64,000 nt of DNA, from assembly GCF_900476395.1 (NCBI RefSeq), contig NZ_UIHB01000003.1, positions 1-64,000 on the forward strand, given 5' to 3'. Position 1 is the stretch's first letter, and each line of letters begins with the position of its first letter. The DNA is from Xanthomonas euroxanthea. Lineage in GTDB: Bacteria > Pseudomonadota > Gammaproteobacteria > Xanthomonadales > Xanthomonadaceae. The notes below the pieces were generated by a model. It saw nothing but the letters and a program-made list of their open reading frames with translations, was not told the origin of the DNA and did not search any database. Below, piece by piece: positions 4,685-35,556 of the stretch. The translations under genes and the position numbers were made by a program.

Positions 4685-7483
4685 TCAGGCGTGCCGTGGT
4701 TGCCGGCACAGCCGGGTGAGTTGCGGGACACAGGAGCCGCAGACCGTGCCGCAGCCCAGGCGTTGCTTGAGCTGGGGCAGATCGGCACCGTCGTCGATGG
4801 CGGCATGGATCGCAGCAGTCGAGACCTGCATGCAGCTGCAGACGATCGGGTCGCTGGGCGCGCCCTGCGTCTGCGCAAATACCGCCAGCCGCGGACCACG
4901 CCACGGCAGGCCCGCCAATGCGGTGCGCAGTAATGCCTGGTTGGCCTCGCTGGGCTGCGCCGCGGTGAGCAGCAGGCCGTCGATATGGCTGTGGCCATCC
5001 TGCATGCGCCAGCCCACACGACGCATCAGCCCGCGGCGCAGGTCGCGGTACTCCAGCACGTCGGCGCCGGCCGGCAGCTGCAGTGCCGCAACCAGACGGT
5101 CGAGCCAGCCGGCATCCGGGGCGCGCTCGCAGGCCGCATGCAAAACTGCCCAGTGCCCGCCGGCCCCCGCCAGCGGCTCGGCATGCAGCCGCAGCGATGC
5201 ATAGCCGCAATCGCGCAACAGCGGCTGCAGCGCCTGTTGCAGGGCCAGCGCATCGCCGCGCCGCGCCGCCAGCAGATGCCAGCCGAACACCGCCTTCTCC
5301 ACCCGCACCGCCGCATGCTTGAGCTCGGGCTGCTGCGAGCGCGCGTCCACCGCCGGGCTGCTGACTTCGTTGATGCCGCCGCTGGACAGGTGCTGCCCGC
5401 TCCAATGCATCGCGGCGAACACGGTGCCCGAGCGCAGCTCGTCGGAGAGTTCCAGCGGCAGCACCAGCGCACCGCGCTTGCTGGCGATCTGCACCAGCTC
5501 GCCAGCGACCAGGCCGCGTCGCGTCGCATCGTCCGGATGCATGCGCAAGGCCGGTTCGGGGCTATGCGCAAACGCCGCCGGTACGCGTCCGCTGCGCGAC
5601 ATGCCATGCCATTGGTCGCGCAGCCGTCCGGTCAGCAGCCGCATCGGGAAACGTGCCGAGGTCGGCTCGGCCACCTTGCGATACGGCGTGGCGTGGAAGC
5701 GCGCGCGCCCGTTGCCGGTGGCGAACACGCCATCGGTATAGCGCCGTGCCTGCCCGTGTGCGGCGCCGGCAGGGAATGGCCACTGCTGCGGCCCGCCATC
5801 CAGCAGCGGGTAGTCCAGCCCGCCGATATCCAGGTCACGGCCCACCGTCAACGCGCGATGCTCGTCGAAGATCTGCGCGGCGCTGTCGAACCCGAACAGG
5901 CCTGCGCCGCTCGCTGGTGCAAGACGCGCCTCGAGCCGGCGCGCCACTTCACTGGCGATCCACCAGTCCGCGCGCGCCTGGCCCGGCGCGTCCACCGCCT
6001 TGCGCACGCGGGTGATGCGACGCTCGGAGTTGGTCACGCTGCCGTCCTTCTCGCCCCAGCTGGTGGCCGGCAACAGCACGTCCGCATATGGCACGGTGTC
6101 GGTGCCGGAGAACGCGTCCTGCACGATCACCAGCTCGGCCTGTTCCAGTGCGGCGCGAATGCCATCCACCTCCGGCATCGAATGCACGGGGTTGGTACAC
6201 ACGATCCACACCGCCTTCAGGCTGCCGGCACGCAGGCGCTCGAACAACTGCACGGCCGGTGTGCCGGCCGTGGCACTCAGCCGGCCGGCCGGCAGATGCC
6301 ACAGGCGTTCCAGTTCCGCACGGTCCTCGGCATTGCCGATCTCGCGATGCGCCGCCAGCATCGTCGCCATGCCGCCGACCTCGCGCCCACCCATCGCATT
6401 GGGCTGGCCGGTCAGCGAAAACGGGCCCGCCCCCGGCTTGCCGATCTGCCCGGTCGCCAGATGCAGGTTGATCAGCGCCAGGTTCTTGTCGGTGCCCTGC
6501 GCGGACTGATTCAGGCCCATGCAGTACAGCGACAAGGCCGCCGGGCTGCGCCCGAACCACTCGGCCGCCTGCACCAGGTCCTCATGCGAGATACCGCAGA
6601 TCTCGGCGCTCATGCGCGGGGTGTATTCGCGCAGCAGGTGCTTGAGTGCGTCGAAGTCCTCGGTATGGGCCGCAACGAAACGCGCATCCACCAGACCCTC
6701 CCAGATCAGGTGATGCAGCATGCCGTTGAACAGCGCAACGTCGGTTCCGGGCTCGATTGCCAGGTGCAGGTCGGCCATGGCCGCGGTGTCGGTGCGACGC
6801 GGGTCGATCACGATCCAGCGAATCCCGGGATTGCGCGCGCGTGCATCTTCCAGGCGGTGAAACAGCACCGGATGCGCATACGCCATGTTGCTGCCGGCAA
6901 ACAGCACGGTCTGCGCCAGCTCCAGATCCTCGTAGCAGGTCGGCGGACCGTCGGCGCCCAGCGCGAGCTTGTAGGCGGTGACCGCGCTGGACATGCACAG
7001 GCGCGAATTGGTGTCGATGTTGTTGGTGCCGAGCAGGCCCTTGGCGAGCTTGTTGAAGATGTAATAGTCCTCGGTCAACAACTGGCCCGAGAGATAGAAC
7101 GCCACCGCATCCGGGCCATGCTGCTCGATGATCGCCGCCAGCTTGCCGGTGACGTGGTCGAGCGCCTGATCCCAGCTCACTACCGCCCGCGGCGCCTGCC
7201 GATGACGACGCAGTTCGGGCGCGAGTACCCGCCCCTGGGTGCTGGCGACGGTCTGCGGCAAGGCCAGGCCCTTGCTGCACAAGCGGCCATGATTGGCCGG
7301 ATGCAGCGGGTCGCCTTCGATCCCGACGATGCGTTCGCCAGTGGCATCGTGCTCGCTGTGGATCAGCACCCCGCAGCCCACGCCGCAGTAGCAGCAGGTC
7401 GAACGCGTGATGCGATGCATCGGCGAGGATGGCTGCGGCGGCACCGCCTCACCGGTCAAGGCTCGCTGCTGGCCGTCGCTCAT
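4685..7483 (-). CDS. nasA: assimilatory nitrate reductase, catalytic subunit
   Basis: A 932-residue molybdopterin oxidoreductase that reduces nitrate to nitrite in the cytoplasm. The N-terminal region binds one [4Fe-4S] cluster (CCYCGVGCGVLIH, then a fourth Cys in GRLCSKG). Central bis-MGD segments include SAVTAYK, GSNMAYAHPV and LTGQPNAMGGREVGG, and a MopB dinucleotide-binding domain follows. The last 60 or so residues form a BFD-like [2Fe-2S] domain (IVCSCMQVS then GCGTVCGSCVPQL), which some NasA proteins carry as an electron entry site. No separate NasB-type reductase is adjacent. The start overlaps the nirD stop (ATGA-type, 7480-7483). Confidence 0.95.
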   Translation of the reverse strand: MSDGQQRALTGEAVPPQPSSPMHRITRSTCCYCGVGCGVLIHSEHDATGERIVGIEGDPLHPANHGRLCSKGLALPQTVASTQGRVLAPELRRHRQAPRAVVSWDQALDHVTGKLAAIIEQHGPDAVAFYLSGQLLTEDYYIFNKLAKGLLGTNNIDTNSRLCMSSAVTAYKLALGADGPPTCYEDLELAQTVLFAGSNMAYAHPVLFHRLEDARARNPGIRWIVIDPRRTDTAAMADLHLAIEPGTDVALFNGMLHHLIWEGLVDARFVAAHTEDFDALKHLLREYTPRMSAEICGISHEDLVQAAEWFGRSPAALSLYCMGLNQSAQGTDKNLALINLHLATGQIGKPGAGPFSLTGQPNAMGGREVGGMATMLAAHREIGNAEDRAELERLWHLPAGRLSATAGTPAVQLFERLRAGSLKAVWIVCTNPVHSMPEVDGIRAALEQAELVIVQDAFSGTDTVPYADVLLPATSWGEKDGSVTNSERRITRVRKAVDAPGQARADWWIASEVARRLEARLAPASGAGLFGFDSAAQIFDEHRALTVGRDLDIGGLDYPLLDGGPQQWPFPAGAAHGQARRYTDGVFATGNGRARFHATPYRKVAEPTSARFPMRLLTGRLRDQWHGMSRSGRVPAAFAHSPEPALRMHPDDATRRGLVAGELVQIASKRGALVLPLELSDELRSGTVFAAMHWSGQHLSSGGINEVSSPAVDARSQQPELKHAAVRVEKAVFGWHLLAARRGDALALQQALQPLLRDCGYASLRLHAEPLAGAGGHWAVLHAACERAPDAGWLDRLVAALQLPAGADVLEYRDLRRGLMRRVGWRMQDGHSHIDGLLLTAAQPSEANQALLRTALAGLPWRGPRLAVFAQTQGAPSDPIVCSCMQVSTAAIHAAIDDGADLPQLKQRLGCGTVCGSCVPQLTRLCRQPRHA

Positions 7484-7845
7484 GCGGCTGGCTCGGCGAT
7501 GGCATCCGGCAGCGATACCGGCTGCAACACGATCCACACCGCATCGGCCTCCACCTTGACCGGGTAGCGCGGCGCGCAGCCCACATCCGGTGCACAGGCC
7601 TGGCCGCTCTGCAGGGCGATCGCCCAGCCGTGCAACGGGCAGGTCACCGTTTCGCCGGCCACGATGCCTTGCGACAACGGCCCGCCCTTGTGCGGGCAGC
7701 GGTCGCGCAACGCAAACACCTGGTCGCTGGCGGTGCGGAACAAGGCGATCGGTGCAATGCCGTCGACTTCGAGCACGCGCGCGCCCAATGCAGGCAGGTC
7801 CTGCAGCGCGCACACGCGGATCCAGGCGGTCTGCTGCATGTTCAT
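7480..7845 (-). CDS. nirD: nitrite reductase (NADH) small subunit, Rieske-type
   Basis: A 121-residue protein with a Rieske fold. The motifs CPHKGGPLSQG and CPLHGW give the Cys-x-His and Cys-x-x-His ligands of a [2Fe-2S] site, more complete than in enterobacterial NirD, where the ligands are lost. NirD partners NirB in the cytoplasmic NADH-dependent reduction of nitrite to ammonium. The start ATG at 7845 overlaps the nirB stop by four bases, and the stop overlaps the nasA start, so nirB-nirD-nasA are translationally coupled. Confidence 0.93.
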   Translation of the reverse strand: MNMQQTAWIRVCALQDLPALGARVLEVDGIAPIALFRTASDQVFALRDRCPHKGGPLSQGIVAGETVTCPLHGWAIALQSGQACAPDVGCAPRYPVKVEADAVWIVLQPVSLPDAIAEPAA

Positions 7846-10295
7846 TCCTCCACCGTCGCGGCCGGCGCGGCGATGCGCAGCGGTTGGTACTCCTGCCGAC
7901 GTTCGCCGGCGATACGCGCCTTCCACGGGTCGACCAGGCCTTCCAGCGAATACAGCAGGCGCTCGTACAAGGCACGCCGGTTGGCCGCGTCGTCCACCAC
8001 TTGTGCGCGGATGTAATCCAGCCCCACCCGTGCGATGTAGTGCACGGTGCGATCCAGGTAATACGCCTGCTCGCGATACAGCTGCAAAAACGCACCGGTG
8101 TATTCGCGCACGTCCTCGGCGGTGCTCACCTTGACCAGGAAGCGGGCCACCTCGGTCTTGATGCCGCCATTGCCACCGACGTGCAGCTCCCACCCCGAGT
8201 CCACCGCGATGATGCCGACATCCTTGATGCCGGATTCGGCGCAGTTGCGCGGGCAACCGGACACCGCCAGCTTCACCTTGTGCGGGCTCCACATATTGGC
8301 CAGCATGGTTTCCAGGTCGATGCCCATCTGCGTGCTGTTCTGGGTGCCGAAACGGCAGAACTCGCTGCCCACGCAGGTCTTCACCGTGCGGATCGACTTG
8401 CCGTAGGCGTGGCCGGAGGGCATGCCCAGATCGCGCCACACATCCACCAGGTCTTCCTTCCGGACCCCGAGCAGATCGATACGCTGGCCACCGGTCACCT
8501 TGACCATCGGCACGGCGTACTTGTCGGCGACATCGGCAATACGGCGCAGCTCGCCCGCATTGGTCACCCCGCCCTTCATCTGCGGAATCACCGAGAAGGT
8601 GCCGTCCTTCTGGATGTTGGCGTGCGCACGCTCGTTGATGAAGCGCGACTGCGGATCGTCGATGGCCTCGTGCGGCCAGCTCGACAACATGTAGTAGTTG
8701 ATCGCCGGCCGGCAGGTCGCGCAACCATTGGGCGTGCGCCATTCCATGAAGGCGTAGGCCTGCGCATGGGTCAGCAACCTGTGCTCGCGAATGGCGCGAC
8801 GCACCTCGCCATGGCTCAGATCGGTGCAGGCGCAGACGGCCTTGGTTTTCGGCGTTTCCTGGAAGTTGGAACCCAGGCAGTTCATCAGGATCTGCTCGAC
8901 CAGCCCCGTGCACGAGCCGCAGGAACTGGCCGCCTTGGTGTGCTTCTTCACCTCATCGACGGTGAACAGCCCCTGCTCGCTGATGGCCTTGACAATCGTG
9001 CCCTTGCACACGCCGTTGCAGCCGCAGACCTCGTCGCTGTCGGCCATCGCACTGGCGCGGTCCTGCCCGCCGGTGCCGGCATCTCCGAGTGCGCTCTCGC
9101 CGAAGATCAACTGGTCGCGCTGCGCCTGGATCGGCGTGCCGTCCTTGAGCAGCTTGAAGTACCAGCCGCCATCGCTGGTGTCGCCGTACAGGCAGGCGCC
9201 GACCAGCACATCGTCGCGGATCACCAGCTTCTTGTAGACCCCGCCGGCCGGATCGGACAGCACGATCTCCTCGCAGCCATCGCCGCCCATGAAATCGCCG
9301 GCCGAAAACAGGTCGATCCCGGTGACCTTGAGCTTGGTCGAGGCCACCGAACCGCGGTAGATGCCGATGCCGAACTGCGCCAGGTGGTTCGCGCACACCT
9401 TGGCCTGCTCGAACAACGGTGCCACCAGGCCATACGCAATGCCACGGTGGTTTGCGCACTCGCCCACCGCATACACGCGCGGATCGAAGCTCTGCAGACT
9501 GTCGTTGACCACGATGCCGCGCGAGCAATGGATGCCGGCTTCCTCGGCCAGGCGCGTATTCGGGCGGATGCCCGCCGCCATCACCACCAGGTCGGCCGGG
9601 ATCTCGCTGCCATCGGCAAACTTCACCCCGACCACCTCGCCCTGCGCATTGCCCAGCAAGGCACTGGTTGCGGTACTCAGCTTGAACTCCAGCCCGCGCG
9701 CGCGCAGCGCCTGCTGCAGCAGGTTGCCGGCCACCGGGTCGAGCTGGCGCTCCAGCAACCACCCGGCCAGATGCACCACGGTCACGTCCATCCCGCGCAG
9801 CTTCAAGCCATTGGCCGCTTCCAGGCCGAGCAGGCCGCCACCGATCACCACCGCATGCTGCTTGCTGCGCGCGGTCTCGATCATCGTGCGCGTGTCCTGG
9901 ATATCGCGGTAGCCGATCACACCGTTCAAATCGTTGCCGGGGATCGGCAACACGAACGGCACCGAACCGGTGGCGATTAACAAGCGGTCGTAGTCGGCCT
10001 CTGTGCCATCGGCGGCGATCACGCGGCGACGCACCCGATCGATGCGCGTGACTTCCTTGTTCAAGTGCAACTGGATGCCGTTGTCCCGATACCACTGCAA
10101 TGGATTGAGCACGATGTCGTCGAACTCCTGCTCGCCGGCCAGCACCGGCGACAGCAGGATGCGGTTGTAGTTGGGGTGCGGCTCGGCCCCGAACACGGTG
10201 ATCTGGTACATGCCCGGCATCAGCTTGAGCAGTTCCTCCACGGTGCGGATGCCGGCCATGCCATTGCCGATGACGACGAGTCTGGGTTGCTTCAT
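7842..10295 (-). CDS. nirB: nitrite reductase (NADH) large subunit
   Basis: An 817-residue enzyme that reduces nitrite to ammonium with NADH. Order of domains: FAD-binding (VIGNGMAGIRT) and NAD-binding (VIGGGLLGLEAANG) in the first 320 residues; BFD-like [2Fe-2S] segment (CGCNGVCKGTI, CGSCTGLVEQIL); a second Cys-rich stretch; then the siroheme/[4Fe-4S] half with CVGSEFCRFG and SGCPRNCAES, whose four Cys bind the coupled cofactors. I chose the ATG at 10295 (MKQPRLVV) because AGGA lies nine bases upstream. An in-frame ATG at 10316 is the alternative. The gap to the narK stop is then 22 bp. Confidence 0.94.
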   Translation of the reverse strand: MKQPRLVVIGNGMAGIRTVEELLKLMPGMYQITVFGAEPHPNYNRILLSPVLAGEQEFDDIVLNPLQWYRDNGIQLHLNKEVTRIDRVRRRVIAADGTEADYDRLLIATGSVPFVLPIPGNDLNGVIGYRDIQDTRTMIETARSKQHAVVIGGGLLGLEAANGLKLRGMDVTVVHLAGWLLERQLDPVAGNLLQQALRARGLEFKLSTATSALLGNAQGEVVGVKFADGSEIPADLVVMAAGIRPNTRLAEEAGIHCSRGIVVNDSLQSFDPRVYAVGECANHRGIAYGLVAPLFEQAKVCANHLAQFGIGIYRGSVASTKLKVTGIDLFSAGDFMGGDGCEEIVLSDPAGGVYKKLVIRDDVLVGACLYGDTSDGGWYFKLLKDGTPIQAQRDQLIFGESALGDAGTGGQDRASAMADSDEVCGCNGVCKGTIVKAISEQGLFTVDEVKKHTKAASSCGSCTGLVEQILMNCLGSNFQETPKTKAVCACTDLSHGEVRRAIREHRLLTHAQAYAFMEWRTPNGCATCRPAINYYMLSSWPHEAIDDPQSRFINERAHANIQKDGTFSVIPQMKGGVTNAGELRRIADVADKYAVPMVKVTGGQRIDLLGVRKEDLVDVWRDLGMPSGHAYGKSIRTVKTCVGSEFCRFGTQNSTQMGIDLETMLANMWSPHKVKLAVSGCPRNCAESGIKDVGIIAVDSGWELHVGGNGGIKTEVARFLVKVSTAEDVREYTGAFLQLYREQAYYLDRTVHYIARVGLDYIRAQVVDDAANRRALYERLLYSLEGLVDPWKARIAGERRQEYQPLRIAAPAATVEE

Positions 10296-10317
10296 TGCCT
10301 GGTTTCCTGTCGACATG

Positions 10318-11526
10318 TCAGACCCGCGCCGCGCCGGCGCTGGACCATTCGCTACGCCACTGCGTCTTGACCCCGGCCAGCAACGCCCAACCACCGAGTG
10401 CGAACGCAGCGAACACCCACATGCCGATCGCGTAGCTGCCGGTGTGCTGCTTGAGCACGCCCAGGCCCGCAGCCAGCGCAAACCCGCCGATGCCGCCGGC
10501 CATGCCGATCAAGCCGGTCATCACGCCGATGTCCTGCGCAAACCGCTGCGGTACCAGCTGGAACACCGCGCCATTGCCGGCGCCCAGGCACAACAAGGTC
10601 AGCACGAACAAGGCCAGCGTCACCATCGCACCGCCCGCACCGACACCTGCGATGCCCACCAGCGCAGCCACCAGGAGATAGACGGTGAGCAAGGCACGCG
10701 TGCCACCAACGCGGTCCGCAATCACACCGCCCAACGGACGCATCACCGACCCCGCCAATACGCAGGCAGCCGTCGCCCAGCCCGCAGTGCGCGCATCGAA
10801 GCCGAACTGGTCGTGGAAGTAGCCCGGCAACGCGCTGGCAAACCCGGAGAAACCGCCAAAGGTCACCGAATAGAAAAACATGAAACGCCAGGCATCGCGG
10901 TTGCCCACCAGCACGCGGCCGTAGTCGGACCAGCGCTTGCGTGCGACCGGTGCAGGCGCCTCCTTCGCAATCAAGACAAACACGATCAGCGTCAGCAGCA
11001 ACGGGATGCATGCCAGTCCGAATACATTCTGGTAACCGAACGCCAACGCCAGCATCGGTGCGAACAACGCCGCCAATACGGTGCCGGAATTGCCCGCACC
11101 GGCAATGCCCATCGCCGTGCCCTGATGCTCGGGCGGATACCAGCGCGAGGCCAGCGGCAGCGCAACCGCGAACGAGGCGCCGGCAATGCCGAGCAACACG
11201 CCCAGCAGCAACACCTGCCCCATGCTGTGCACGCCGAACTGCCAGGCACCAAACAACGACGCGATCACCGCAAGCTGTGCGGCAACGCCCGCACGCTTGG
11301 CGCCGATACGATCGGCCAGCATGCCCAGCGCCAGCCGCAACACGGCGCCGCACAGGATCGGCACCGCCACCATCAGGGCGCGCTGCTGCGTATCCAGTCC
11401 CAGCGATTGCGCAATCGGCACCTGCAGCGGACCGAGCAGATACCACACCATGAAGCTCAGGTCGAAATACAGGAAGGATGCGAACAAGGTGGGCGTGTGC
11501 CCGGATCGCCAGAACGAGCGCTGCAT
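10318..11526 (-). CDS. narK: nitrate/nitrite transporter, MFS NNP family
   Basis: A 402-residue major facilitator protein with twelve predicted membrane spans. It has the NNP-type glycine-rich nitrate signatures in TM5 (GIAGAGNSGTVLAALFAP) and TM11 (LGAGNGAVFQLVPQRF) and the MFS loop GMLADRIGAKR. It should import nitrate across the inner membrane for assimilation. The ATG at 11526 has a good ribosome site (AGAGG, 6 bases upstream). It is the first gene of the narK-nirB-nirD-nasA-cobA operon, and its roughly 146-nt leader carries the regulatory hairpins described separately. Some annotations would call such a protein NasA or NarK/NasA-type; the assimilatory context is clear. Confidence 0.93.
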   Translation of the reverse strand: MQRSFWRSGHTPTLFASFLYFDLSFMVWYLLGPLQVPIAQSLGLDTQQRALMVAVPILCGAVLRLALGMLADRIGAKRAGVAAQLAVIASLFGAWQFGVHSMGQVLLLGVLLGIAGASFAVALPLASRWYPPEHQGTAMGIAGAGNSGTVLAALFAPMLALAFGYQNVFGLACIPLLLTLIVFVLIAKEAPAPVARKRWSDYGRVLVGNRDAWRFMFFYSVTFGGFSGFASALPGYFHDQFGFDARTAGWATAACVLAGSVMRPLGGVIADRVGGTRALLTVYLLVAALVGIAGVGAGGAMVTLALFVLTLLCLGAGNGAVFQLVPQRFAQDIGVMTGLIGMAGGIGGFALAAGLGVLKQHTGSYAIGMWVFAAFALGGWALLAGVKTQWRSEWSSAGAARV

Positions 11527-11551: not shown

Positions 11552-11593
11552 AAAAAAAAACGGCGCCCCTCCGGTAAAACCGGAAGGACGCCG
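11552..11593 (-). terminator. intrinsic terminator in the narK leader (attenuator)
   Basis: On the minus strand, 14 consecutive pairs (two of them G-U) join 11593-11580 to 11574-11561 around a small U/A loop, followed at once by nine U (11560-11552). It ends 25 nt before the narK start and lies inside the leader, not after a gene, so it should stop transcription of the operon unless prevented. Its 5' arm shares bases 11585-11593 with leader hairpin C, so the two structures are mutually exclusive. Confidence 0.9.
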
Positions 11594-11600
11594 TTGTCCT
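11585..11600 (-). promoter_or_regulatory. leader hairpin C, ANTAR-type hexaloop overlapping the terminator
   Basis: Minus-strand AGGAC-AACGGC-GUCCU forms a 5-bp stem with a six-base loop having A at position 1 and G at position 4, the pattern bound by ANTAR antiterminators such as NasT. It shares nine bases with the terminator 5' arm, so holding this hairpin would block the terminator. nasT lies about 2 kb away. Confidence 0.8.
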
Positions 11601-11608
11601 GGATGCGT

Positions 11609-11628
11609 GCGGATCGCCGTTGATCCGC
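11609..11628 (-). promoter_or_regulatory. leader hairpin B, ANTAR-type hexaloop
   Basis: A perfect 7-bp stem (GCGGAUC with GAUCCGC) closes the same AACGGC hexaloop, with A1 and G4. It is eight bases 5' of hairpin C. B and C together match the usual two-hairpin ANTAR target. Confidence 0.8.
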
Positions 11629-11647
11629 TGCATCGTGTGTGTGTTGT

Positions 11648-11671
11648 TGCAGGTACGCCGTTGCACCTGCA
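11648..11671 (-). promoter_or_regulatory. leader hairpin A, additional AACGGC hexaloop
   Basis: A nine-pair stem (UGCAGGUGC with GUACCUGCA, one G-U) closes a third AACGGC loop. It begins at the predicted transcript 5' end and is 20 bases from hairpin B. A third copy exceeds the two-hairpin ANTAR consensus and may serve as an extra binding site. Confidence 0.7.
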
Positions 11672-11683
11672 CGTGAGTGCCAA

Positions 11684-11698
11684 GCAATCAACGTGCCA
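11684..11698 (-). promoter_or_regulatory. sigma-54 promoter of narK-nirBD-nasA-cobA
   Basis: Minus strand TGGCACG (11698-11692), four bases, then TTGCT (11687-11683) matches the RpoN consensus TGGCACG-N4-TTGCW exactly. Transcription should start near 11672, just 5' of hairpin A. This implies an enhancer-binding activator, most simply NtrC under nitrogen limitation. Confidence 0.85.
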
Positions 11699-11827
11699 AC
11701 TTGCGCACCCGGGCATCATGCCGCTGCAAGTCACTGGAAAATGGTGGCTTTCTTGCAATGCCTGCAGTTCGCCAACGATCTGTCGAGGAACGGATGCAGC
11801 GTGCCGTTCCCGGCTTTCGTGCGCCGA

Positions 11828-11844
11828 TGCACCAATAGCGTGCG
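11828..11844. promoter_or_regulatory. candidate NtrC-binding site
   Basis: TGCACC-N5-CGTGCG matches the palindromic NtrC consensus TGCACC-N5-GGTGCA at 10 of 12 positions and keeps the GC-N11-GC spacing. It lies about 160 bp upstream of the predicted narK start site, a normal enhancer distance. It is the only such site I found, so support is moderate. Confidence 0.45.
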
Positions 11845-12466: not shown

Positions 12467-13543
12467 TCAGCGCGAATCGAACAACCGATTGCTGCGGTGA
12501 TCGCCCTCCGGCACGGCCACGCCGATGCGTGCGGCCGCGCGCCGATAGCTGTCCAGTCGATGGATGTCGCGCAGCCGCGCGATGTCGTCTTCTTGGATGT
12601 CATGCCAACCCCAGCGTTGAAACTGGGTCAGGAACCACTCGCCGTCCGATAGCCATGGCATGTTGACCGCGCCATCGCGGTGAAAGGCCAGCGCCGTCCC
12701 ATCGTTCGCATATGCCTTCGCATCGGCATCGGCCTCGGCATCCAGGCAGGCCGCCAGATGCGCAGCCGACACACCGATATGCTGCGGCTCGGCCAGCCAC
12801 TGCGCACATTGCGCGCGATTTGCCGGGTCCGCATCCAGCCAGCGGCAGGCCTCCAGCACGCAGGCGGTCAGGCGTTCGGTCAACTCGGGTTGCAGCGCGG
12901 CGAATTCGCGCCGGCAGGCCAGCACTTTTTCCGGATGGCCAGCCCACAGCTCGCCACTGCGGATCACGCGTCGACCGCTGCCCTGCGCCTGCGCAACCGC
13001 CGCCCATGGCTCACCGGAGCAATAGCCATCGACCAGGCCACTGGCCAAGGCGTCCGGCATCTGCGGCGGCGGGATGCTGAGCACGTCCACTTCGCGCATC
13101 GGGTCCACGCCGCGTGCGGCCAGCCAGTAGTACAGCCATAACGCATGCGTGCCGGTGGGGAAGGTCTGCGCGAACACGGCGCGGCGACCCAGGCTGGCCA
13201 GCGCCTGTGGCAAGGTCTGCCCGTCGGCCAAGGCCTGTGCGAGCGCAGGTGCCAACGTGATCGCCTGGCCGTTGTGGTTGAGCGTCAGCAACAGCGCCAT
13301 CGGGCACTGCGGCCCGGCAATGCCCAGGTCGATCGCATAGACCAGGCTGGCCAGGGTGTGCGCTGCATCGACCTCGCCCGCCAGCAGACGGTCGCGTACG
13401 CCGGCCCAGGACGCCTGCCGTTGCAAGTGCAACTGCAGCCCATGCACGTGATCCAGGCCCAGTCGTTGCGCCGCGACCAGGGGCGCGCAATCGATCAGCG
13501 GCATGTAGGCCACGCGCAGTACGGGGAGGTCGGCTTGGCTCAT
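12467..13543 (-). CDS. nasS: nitrate-sensing regulator, NrtA-like cytoplasmic binding protein
   Basis: A 358-residue protein of the NrtA/SsuA substrate-binding family (LRVAYMPLIDCAPLVAA at the start; LASGLVDGYCSGEPWAA; NGQAITL; YYWLAARGVDP). It has no signal peptide or lipobox, which separates cytoplasmic NasS from the periplasmic transporter component NrtA. In known systems NasS sequesters NasT when nitrate/nitrite is absent and releases it on ligand binding. Here it follows nasT by four bases on the same strand, the expected nasT-nasS pair, and the predicted RNA target is in the narK leader. No ABC transporter genes are beside it. Confidence 0.9.
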   Translation of the reverse strand: MSQADLPVLRVAYMPLIDCAPLVAAQRLGLDHVHGLQLHLQRQASWAGVRDRLLAGEVDAAHTLASLVYAIDLGIAGPQCPMALLLTLNHNGQAITLAPALAQALADGQTLPQALASLGRRAVFAQTFPTGTHALWLYYWLAARGVDPMREVDVLSIPPPQMPDALASGLVDGYCSGEPWAAVAQAQGSGRRVIRSGELWAGHPEKVLACRREFAALQPELTERLTACVLEACRWLDADPANRAQCAQWLAEPQHIGVSAAHLAACLDAEADADAKAYANDGTALAFHRDGAVNMPWLSDGEWFLTQFQRWGWHDIQEDDIARLRDIHRLDSYRRAAARIGVAVPEGDHRSNRLFDSR

Positions 13544-13547
13544 GTGG

Positions 13548-14120
13548 TCATCCCAGCAACTCGGCCATGGCCACGATGCGTCGCGCCACTTCGGCCAGTT
13601 TGACGCCCTGCTTCATCGCCTGCTGGCGCAGCGCCGCGTAGGCGTCGGCCTCGCTCAGGCCGCGTTTTTCCATCAACAGGCCCTTGGCGCGATCGATCAG
13701 CTTGCGGTCCTGCAGCGCCTGCTGCACATCGTCCAGGCGCTTGCGCATGCTGCTTTCCTGCGCAAACCGCGCAAGCGCCACCTGCACGATCGGCGCCAAC
13801 CGCGCCGGCGCCAGGCCATCGACCACATAGGCAGTGACACCAGCGCCGACGGCCGCATGGATCAAGGCATCGTCGCCATCGCCGGAAAACATCACCACCG
13901 GGCGCGGCGCGTGGGCATGCAGCATCGACAGTTGCTCCAGGGTGTCGCGCGAGGGCGAGTCGACATCGATCACCACCACGTCCGGCTGCTGACTCTGTAC
14001 CGCATGCAGCAAGGCACCGACCGATGCCACATCGTCGAGCACCGTGTAGCCGGCGCGCGTCAATGCCTGACGCAGTTCGCCGATCGGCTTTTCGGTATCG
14101 TTGACCAGCAGGACACGCAT
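13548..14120 (-). CDS. nasT: NasT-type ANTAR antiterminator with receiver-like domain
   Basis: A 190-residue protein. Residues 1-120 are a receiver-like fold (RVLLVNDTE, DVVVIDVDSPS with Asp52/Asp54). Residues about 125-185 form an ANTAR domain (QQALQDRKLIDRAKGLLMEKRGLSEADAYAALR), which binds paired RNA hexaloop hairpins. NasT prevents formation of a leader terminator in nitrate-assimilation operons. The three AACGGC hairpins ahead of narK are the obvious target. The ATG at 14120 opens at the receiver domain. It is divergent from cysG, with an 82-bp shared upstream region. Confidence 0.93.
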   Translation of the reverse strand: MRVLLVNDTEKPIGELRQALTRAGYTVLDDVASVGALLHAVQSQQPDVVVIDVDSPSRDTLEQLSMLHAHAPRPVVMFSGDGDDALIHAAVGAGVTAYVVDGLAPARLAPIVQVALARFAQESSMRKRLDDVQQALQDRKLIDRAKGLLMEKRGLSEADAYAALRQQAMKQGVKLAEVARRIVAMAELLG

Positions 14121-14202
14121 TGGCGGCAGCGAGGCGTGGACGTGGCCTGATGGTGCCATGCAACATGCCGTCGATGCGAGCCATCCTTTCGGAGTACGTC
14201 TG

Positions 14203-15201
14203 ATGCCGTTGTTCCCGTTGTTCGCAAACCTGCAGGCGCGCGCCGTGCTGGTCATCGGCGGTGGCGAAGTCGCCACGCGCAAGGTGCTGGCGCTGCTCAA
14301 GGCCGGTGCGCACATCCGCCTGTACGCGCATGCGCTCTCGCCCGAACTGGCAGAGCTGATGCAGGCCGGCCGTTTCGAACAATTGGGCGGCCAGTTCGAT
14401 CCCGCCTGGATCGATGACGTGTGGCTGGTGGTCGCCGCCACCGACGATGGCGCGTTGAATCAACGTGTCGCCGCTGCCGCCGGTGCGCGTCAGCGCCTGG
14501 TCAACGTGGTGGACGATGCGGAGCTGTCGACCTATCAGGTGCCGGCCATCGTGGACCGCGATCCGCTGGTCATCGCCATTTCCTCCGCCGGTGCCGCACC
14601 GATGCTGGCACGCCGCCTGCGCGAACGGCTTGAGCGCGAACTGGATGTCTCGGTCGGTCGCTTCGCCGGCCTGTTTGCGCGTCACCGCGAGCGCATCCGC
14701 AGCCAGTTCCCCGACATGAACCGGCGCCGGCGCTGGTTCGACCGCGTCATCGACGGCAACGTGCCGCTGCTGCTGCAGGCCGGCAACGACGACGCGGCCG
14801 AAAGCGCCTTCATCGCCGCACTGGACGATGCCGGCGCGGTGCCGGCACGTGGCAGCGTGCAACTGGTCGGCACCGGCCCGGGCGATCCCGGCCTGCTCAC
14901 CCTCAAGGCGCTGCGCGCGATGAATCTGGCCGACGTCCTGCTGATCGGCGACGACATCCCCGAGGCAGTGCTGGAACTGGCAAGGCGTGATGCCTCACGC
15001 CGCGGCTTGCCGCACGATGCCGCGGCACAGCACGATGTCTTGCTGGAACTGGCCACCGAAGGCCTGCACGTGGTCGCATTGCGCAGCGGCGCCGGTTACA
15101 GCGATACCGATGCTGCCGCAATCCAGGCCGCGCTGCAGGCACGTGGCCTGGCGTGCGAGCGTGTGCCCGGCATTGCTGCGCGGCTTGAAGCCGGCGCATA
15201 A
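14203..15201 (+). CDS. cysG: siroheme synthase with intact dehydrogenase/ferrochelatase part and degenerate SUMT domain
   Basis: A 332-residue protein. Residues 1-210 are a complete CysG N-terminal half: NAD loop VLVIGGGEVATRK, NVVDDAELSTYQVPAIVDR, and the dimer/ferrochelatase region ending QFPDMNRRRRW. It oxidises precorrin-2 and inserts iron. From residue about 220 a SUMT start is present (VGTGPGDPGLLTLKALR), but the VRLKGGD signature is missing and the chain ends at VPGIAAR, where a normal SUMT has half its length left. Methylation is therefore presumably done by the separate CobA at 3870-4646. ATG 14203 has GGAG nine bases upstream. It is divergent from nasT. Confidence 0.9.
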   Translation: MPLFPLFANLQARAVLVIGGGEVATRKVLALLKAGAHIRLYAHALSPELAELMQAGRFEQLGGQFDPAWIDDVWLVVAATDDGALNQRVAAAAGARQRLVNVVDDAELSTYQVPAIVDRDPLVIAISSAGAAPMLARRLRERLERELDVSVGRFAGLFARHRERIRSQFPDMNRRRRWFDRVIDGNVPLLLQAGNDDAAESAFIAALDDAGAVPARGSVQLVGTGPGDPGLLTLKALRAMNLADVLLIGDDIPEAVLELARRDASRRGLPHDAAAQHDVLLELATEGLHVVALRSGAGYSDTDAAAIQAALQARGLACERVPGIAARLEAGA

Positions 15202-35482: not shown

Positions 35483-35490
35483 CGGGGGTG

Positions 35491-35548
35491 GGCAGGCATC
35501 ATCAGCGCGCAGACTGCGTGCGGTTCAAGGAGGAATGCCATCTCCTGC
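35491..35548 (-). promoter_or_regulatory. fluoride riboswitch (crcB motif) aptamer
   Basis: On the minus strand the RNA reads GGAG-AUGGCAUU-CCUCC (P1 hairpin, 35545 inward), then GAACCGC, a short variable stem (CGCA/UGCG), then CUGAUGAUGCC. GGCAU in the first loop is complementary to AUGCC at the 3' end, the pseudoknot of the crcB RNA motif. All conserved blocks (GAUGG...UUCC, AACCGC, CUGAUGAUGCCU) are present in order. It directly precedes crcB. Confidence 0.88.
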
Positions 35549-35556
35549 ACGGCCGA

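Follow-up and report, generated by a model that had tools for sequence, protein, structure and literature searches.

A predicted NasT antitermination leader with three hexaloops, one of them close to the promoter, ahead of nitrate-use genes in Xanthomonas euroxanthea

The 64 000 nt of contig NZ_UIHB01000003.1 of Xanthomonas euroxanthea analysed here (the window) contain, just ahead of a narK-like gene, a putative NasT (ANTAR) antitermination leader with three hexaloop hairpins. Antitermination leaders of the NasT/ANTAR class are known; what is new is the third, promoter-proximal hexaloop and its conservation, seen in covariation and in the identity of the loop letters in Xanthomonadaceae and Neisseriales, with sporadic occurrences elsewhere. 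The leader probably switches on the genes for nitrate use, and we favour, with some reserve, a reading of the third hexaloop as an extra, early docking site for NasT.

The locus and the anatomy of the leader

The minus strand carries, in order, nasT, nasS, the leader, narK, nirB and the gene of a nasA-like molybdenum enzyme (Table 1). The listed nirB and nasA ORFs overlap narK and nirB respectively, and the true start of each is probably further in. NasT, which was used as a query of 198 aa starting at 14144, is 99 % identical to NasT of Xanthomonas arboricola (L018) and is the one ANTAR protein found in the 4.9 Mb genome. An earlier note on this DNA had placed nasT and nasS 2 kb away; counted upstream from the inferred transcription start, the distance to the end of nasT is about 1.9 kb and that to the end of nasS about 0.8 kb. 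The sole Rfam match above cut-off in the window is a fluoride riboswitch (RF01734) at 35486-35554 (-), scoring 47.3 bits against a gathering score of 34.

Table 1. Features of the nas locus, in window coordinates
Feature	Position	Strand	Basis and remarks
nasA-like molybdopterin reductase	4685..8095	-	Molybdopterin, E 1.8e-70
nirB-like nitrite reductase	7842..10481	-	Pyr_redox_2, NIR_SIR, Fer2_BFD
narK-like MFS transporter, first gene 3' of the leader	10318..11526	-	MFS_1, E 3.6e-42
Intrinsic terminator, 5' arm overlapping hairpin C	11552..11595	-	Fold -31.8 kcal/mol
Hairpin C (putative antiterminator), 5 bp, loop AACGGC 11595-11590	11585..11600	-	Fold -5.6 kcal/mol
Hairpin B, loop AACGGC 11621-11616	11602..11634	-	Fold -17.8 kcal/mol extended, -11.1 core
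Hairpin A, 9 bp, begins at +2, loop AACGGC 11662-11657	11648..11671	-	Fold -14.3 kcal/mol
Predicted transcription start, +1	11672	-	Inferred from -24/-12 spacing
Sigma-54 promoter TTGGCACGTTGATTGCT (-24/-12)	11683..11699	-	Consensus match
NtrC-like palindrome GCAC-N7-GTGC, starts at -171 from predicted +1	11829..11843		Pattern match
nasS, NMT1-like nitrate sensor	12467..13543	-	PF13379, E 1e-77
nasT, receiver + ANTAR	13548..14441	-	Listed ORF; start codon unsettled

The sigma-54 promoter claimed in the earlier note is indeed a consensus site, and exact TTGGCACN5TTGCW sites number only four in the whole genome. Sequence and fold likewise confirm that the loops of hairpins A, B and C are all AACGGC, and each is closed by a C:G pair. 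Hairpin B has a 7 bp core (11628-11609) which a GAUGC/GCAUC extension lengthens to 12 bp (11634-11602), so that the linker from B to C is 8 nt counted from the core and 1 nt if the extension forms, the range in eut leaders being 5-12 nt. The terminator does overlap hairpin C and does end in nine U residues (11560-11552) 25 nt ahead of the narK ATG at 11526, although its stem has 17 pairs, including G-U (11595-11559), rather than the 14 first described, and its 5' arm has 11 nt (11595-11585) rather than nine in common with hairpin C. Hairpin C, as the last hexaloop hairpin, and the intrinsic terminator are modelled as mutually exclusive.

The leader has a predicted fold of -83.7 kcal/mol (z -7.3), which none of 200 shuffles equalled, and when its 149 nt were dinucleotide-shuffled 5000 times, no such hairpin was present in 4827 of the products, one in 171, two in 2 and three in none. 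We counted as a triple any three such hairpins that fall within 90 nt and have 5 bp or more each; both strands of 910 832 bases (the window and loci L002-L073) hold eight non-overlapping triples, all eight of them at nas leaders. No second triple leader was found in the genome, where our leader model, R1, gives the nas leader 121.1 bits and the next match 15.5 bits. With at least two A1/G4 hexaloops, C:G closing pairs and an ANTAR protein in the same genome, the element can be assigned on sequence to the ANTAR-target antitermination leaders.

Initiation of transcription

The sequence GCAC-N7-GTGC is presumably an NtrC-type site. Of 39 leaders, 23 have a GCACN7GTGC that begins between -170 and -173, and 37 (all but L023 and L054) have one or more GCACN6-7GTGC within 330 bp, in several relatives at other positions from -48 to -247; the background frequency of GCACN7GTGC, taken across the whole set of loci, is 0.029 in 330 nt. 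TGGCA and TTGC of the promoter are invariant in 36 aligned leaders, themselves selected by a sigma-54-like site. The genome has two RpoN genes and an ntrC equivalog with a score of 735.8 bits against a cut-off of 558.6. The -24/-12 consensus, the activator-like site and the presence of an activator gene suggest a sigma-54/NtrC promoter, and to this extent homology bears out the earlier proposal that sigma-54 and NtrC set initiation.

Conservation of the three hexaloops

The search with NasT yielded 72 loci. Candidate leaders, 43 in all, were chosen from 42 loci plus the window for having a T run, two or more AANGGC sequences and a site like that of sigma-54; owing to these criteria the conservation of the three features is partly by choice. 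Four of the candidates were wrong picks (L050, L051, L056 and L061) and three were too distant (L052-L054); the other 36 are alignable from the sigma-54 site through the terminator. Before covariation was counted, the alignment was reduced to 26 leaders by omission of the close relatives L004, L010, L012, L016, L017, L019, L026 and L035, together with L023 and L024, which are without loop A.

Among these 26 leaders 94.7 % of the cells of helix A are paired, and six of its eight pairs have changed on both sides. The figures for helix B are 90.5 %, with both-side changes in six of the seven core pairs, and for helix C 89.2 %, with such changes in one of five pairs; helix A thus covaries like helix B. 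The three-helix structure has 91.9 % of its cells paired, as against 32-49 % for slid pairings, and none of 500 shuffles, which ignore the relatedness of the rows, reached it in any of five measures. The C:G pair that closes the loop is present in 26 of 26 rows for each of A, B and C, and RNAalifold run on all 36 leaders recovers the three hairpins.

The loop letters are kept as well. Loop C is AACGGC in all 36 leaders, loop B has A1 and G4 in all 36, and A1, A2 and G4 of loop A are found in 34 of the 36. The two exceptions, from Luteimonas (L023) and Lysobacter (L024), have a hairpin at the position of A that is without A1/G4. Variation in loops A and B is seen at positions 3, 5 and 6 (for example AATGGC, AACGGG and AACGAG), a pattern that would be expected of contact with an ANTAR domain and not of pairing with the terminator. 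Hairpin B has a mismatch in many Xanthomonas leaders, and in L038, L049 and L100 the minimum-energy fold is without A and B as drawn, though the loop letters are present. The earlier note was right that the third hexaloop exceeds the usual pair: it lies beyond the published dual-hairpin motif, and it is conserved.

Distribution and leader architectures

A pattern for hairpin C and the terminator gave 96 rows, of which six were removed by hand as not C hairpins and 90 were thinned to 66 non-redundant leaders. Plain minimum-energy folds show at least three A1/G4 hexaloops in 22 of the 66, comprising 11 of 17 from Xanthomonadaceae, four of seven from Neisseriales and seven of 42 from other groups (L053, L059, L061, L109, L111, L119 and L130, the last of the P11 type), and with these seven we dropped the view that only Xanthomonas and its kin have triple loops. 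Two further triple leaders, L159 and L160, are among 19 loci of the phylum draw with a recognised C hairpin (22 examined). For the 56 of the 66 leaders whose sigma-54-like site has no more than two mismatches, an A1/G4 hexaloop hairpin occurs in the first 35 nt in 15 of 17 Xanthomonadaceae (0.23 expected) and six of six Neisseriales (0.07 expected). It also occurs in 15 of 33 other leaders, a count that does not speak for a third loop because it includes two-hairpin leaders in which the early loop is the usual first hairpin.

In the family draw of 198 genomes R1 matches 26, of which 24 have E below 1e-10, and the ANTAR profile PF03861 matches 30. All 24 strong R1 matches are in genomes that hold an ANTAR protein and none is in the 168 genomes without one. 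This association, and the place 1.9 kb from the leader of the single ANTAR gene detected in the X. euroxanthea genome, lend support by homology to the proposal that NasS-NasT sets elongation. Of the 30 ANTAR genomes, 24 hold a strong leader and six (G015, G040, G062, G092, G093 and G175) have no R1 match; the weak matches in G026 and G128 (E about 3e-4), without an ANTAR match, were set aside, and L105 and L106 proved on inspection to have no leader of this kind. At E 0.001 the class draw (369 genomes) gave 24 matches to R1, 13 to P11 and 15 to narK RNA, the phylum draw (378 genomes) 22 to R1 and the order draw (101 genomes) three, with the provisos that the draws partly overlap, that weak matches may be lost and that an R1 match is not equal to a three-loop leader. 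In four Xanthomonas loci (L058, L067, L071 and L073) the match to NasT is short or poor and R1 does not match the fetched stretch strongly, some of the contigs ending nearby.

The relatives form a natural series of A+B+C, B+C, A+C and two-hairpin leaders. The distance from the sigma-54 site to loop C is mostly 57-81 nt where one hairpin precedes and mostly 91-104 nt in three-hairpin leaders, and the loop of the start-adjacent hairpin is usually 35-40 nt from TGGCAC, though at 47-61 in the two-hairpin phylum-draw leaders L164-L167, L169 and L171. The unpaired gap between A and B ranges from 9 to 15 nt in Xanthomonadaceae leaders, most of which have 12-14 nt, with an extra small helix in L024; in Neisseriales it is 7-13 nt. 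Between B and C it is 0-5 nt. Seven leaders (L046, L101, L136, L139, L161, L162 and L178) have the A and C hexaloops and a middle hairpin with another loop. In Chitinimonas (L046 10235-10394 and L047 9276-9435) a structured insert replaces B, A (loop AATGTC) and C being kept, and in the Crenobacter leader (L041 7957-8181) more than 100 nt with a terminal inverted repeat stand between A and B/C. A betaproteobacterial MAG (L054) has two candidate NasT leaders, at 2625-2705 and 6707-6799, within a 12 kb locus. Published accounts of ANTAR regulation have two hairpins, and the view of whether the dimer binds both loops together or successively has been revised (PMC8934654). The three-loop leaders and the relatives that miss one loop are a ready test series, suited to asking whether docking is successive, how the spacing of loops matters and whether NasT is titrated.

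For a NasT tree of 50 rows (49 of the 72 loci and the window), 38 rows could be labelled by leader type and 12 were left unlabelled. The A+B+C label needs three changes, a number as low as in none of 500 shuffles, although near-copies among the rows favour such a result; rows labelled as having two hexaloops are on a side of their own, and 22 of the 47 inner branches are weak.

Relation to known leaders

Earlier papers describe between them dual hairpins with A1/G4 and a C:G closing pair that exclude a terminator, dissociation of NasS-NasT by nitrate, and the sigma-54/NtrC start of NalA (PMC3369931, PMC8934654, PMC7496416, PMC3795266, PMC5424462, PMC6759348, PMC8164766, PMC12830290, PMC12316311, PMC3369936). 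In the portions of the ANTAR and NasT literature searched we found no description of a leader with three hexaloops.

One of the closest likenesses is to NalA of Pseudomonas, where sigma-54/NtrC initiation and elongation through NasT make a two-layer logic; as is predicted for the window leader, a nitrate assimilation operon is started there from sigma-54 and antiterminated by NasT (PMC12830290). The eutP, nasF and amiE targets resemble it in their A1/G4 hexaloops, C:G closing pairs and a second hairpin exclusive with the terminator (PMC3369931, PMC7496416, PMC8934654), although they are described with two hairpins, one ahead of the switch hairpin, where the window leader has two ahead. The Paracoccus denitrificans nasA leader, with NasS-NasT and hairpins between nasS and nasA, is also described with two hairpins as against three here; HI is required there for growth on nitrate (PMC5424462). 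EutX/Rli55 has an additional single hexaloop beside the dual motif, but is a small RNA said to sequester EutV, whereas the window element leads an operon and contains a switch of its own (PMC8934654).

Curated Rfam cut-offs miss the three-loop branch. The P11 model (RF00625), which we take to be NalA, the Pseudomonas nirBD leader, matches the window leader across all its 139 positions with 36.4 bits, below its gathering score of 70. In the narK RNA consensus (RF03032) one can recognise a stretch resembling a sigma-54 site, a CCAACGGCGG hairpin similar to B and letters similar to those of C, but the model pairs only the B-like hairpin, and its match of 29.1 bits does not reach the gathering score of 43.2. 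Neither model has a match above gathering in the window or in any of the 11 leader-bearing Xanthomonadaceae and Neisseriales loci scanned. The P11-type leader L130 can be folded with three A1/G4 hexaloops (AACGTG, ACAGAG and AAAGGC), placed differently from those of the window leader. It lies in the class-draw genome G358, 3.7 kb from a second NasT-type leader, L123, one of the two being P11-like (126.2 bits) and the other narK-RNA-like (55.1 bits).

Folding of the growing transcript and a docking model

Prefixes of the transcript from the inferred start were folded at 20 lengths from +30 to +144. Hairpin A is predicted to be intact at all 20, the core of B appears from +66 and full B from +72, and C is present from +90 to +102, its place being taken from +108 by the terminator, with A and B retained. 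In the full-length minimum-energy folds of 56 of 56 non-redundant leaders hairpin C is missing. Hairpin A is complete 88 nt ahead of the U run and B only 42-49 nt ahead, so that A may widen the time available for loading.

We infer binding by NasT, control by nitrate and NtrC, and a recruiting role for hairpin A, and picture events as follows. At low nitrogen, phosphorylated NtrC would start transcription at the sigma-54 promoter, and hairpin A would fold on leaving the polymerase (+2 to +25), followed by B and then C. When NasT is not free, the terminator would capture C by its loop and 3' arm, and transcription would stop some 120 nt past the start. In the presence of nitrate, NasS would release NasT, which would dock on A, B or both and then hold C, so that the terminator could not form and narK, nirB and nasA would be read.

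This docking role, modelled on the recruitment hairpin of EutV (PMC8934654), is the best-supported guess since A folds first and stays available; it refines the suggestion of the earlier note that the third hexaloop could recruit a second NasT. Several observations weigh against it. NasR already binds fully to two hairpins (PMC7496416), so that A may be dispensable. The A-B gap, 12-14 nt in the majority of leaders, exceeds the 5-12 nt between hairpins of the eut leaders, as far as these are described, and a 14 nt linker hurt EutV. In an alignment read by eye, R142, K143, E160, Y164 and M172 of EutV are identical in NasT, a point in favour of docking, whereas K147, N173, R175 and R177 correspond to R, K, G and K, which suggests that NasT keeps the residues that contact G4 and differs in the basic patch; joint loss of N173, R175 and R177 is described as abolishing binding by EutV. 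The loop A sequences of L023 and L024, the folds of L038, L049 and L100, and the mismatches in hairpin B of many Xanthomonas leaders also count against docking.

Alternative roles for hairpin A

Hairpins A and B might instead be interchangeable first hairpins, the triple form being a neutral duplication and A a spare copy. The A+C-only relatives L046, L047, L101, L136 and L139 and the B+C-only relatives L023, L024, L052, L107 and L108 fit this, but A and B both keep their pairing and loop bases across two groups, and the few changes of the A+B+C label on the NasT tree (near-copies helping) also speak against it; we regard a spare copy as doubtful.

A second possibility, to which we give a rather low probability, is that NasT is titrated by the terminated leader. 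This RNA, some 120 nt long, with a stem that begins at +2 and a strong terminator hairpin at its 3' end, would still carry hexaloops A and B, and the negative feedback would last until nitrate frees enough NasT; two-hairpin leaders would keep one loop. In predicted folds of the terminated RNA two A1/G4 hexaloops are left in 16 of 23 Xanthomonadaceae and Neisseriales, and among the others two in five of 33, one in 24 and none in four. The extra single hexaloop of EutX, said to sequester EutV, is a parallel (PMC8934654). Fewer than two loops remain, however, in seven of the 23, and as the sole strong R1 match in the genome is the nas leader, no other target to tune is evident. Titration is compatible with the docking reading, and one RNA could serve both purposes, first as an early loading site for NasT and then as a stable terminated leader of about 120 nt whose A and B sequester it, a combination that we likewise consider rather unlikely. 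If it were true, the switch would make its own sponge and so have a sharper nitrate threshold, and two-hairpin leaders would be without such feedback.

Less probable again is that A mainly stabilizes the 5' end, in which case its stem would protect the 5' triphosphate against 5'-dependent decay and the loop would be a relic of duplication. The stem does begin one base past the predicted start, with similar spacing in relatives, and L023 and L024 retain a hairpin there with a different loop; protection by a stem needs none of A1, A2 and G4 of loop A, which are nevertheless kept in 34 of 36 leaders while positions 3, 5 and 6 vary.

The earlier suggestion of an alternative pairing, in which A would act as an anti-antiterminator through complementarity of its AACGGC loop to GCCGUU in the 3' arm of the terminator, is very improbable and was rejected, since A is intact at every prefix length, with B forming from +66, and the drift of loop A at positions 3, 5 and 6 is unmatched by change in that arm.
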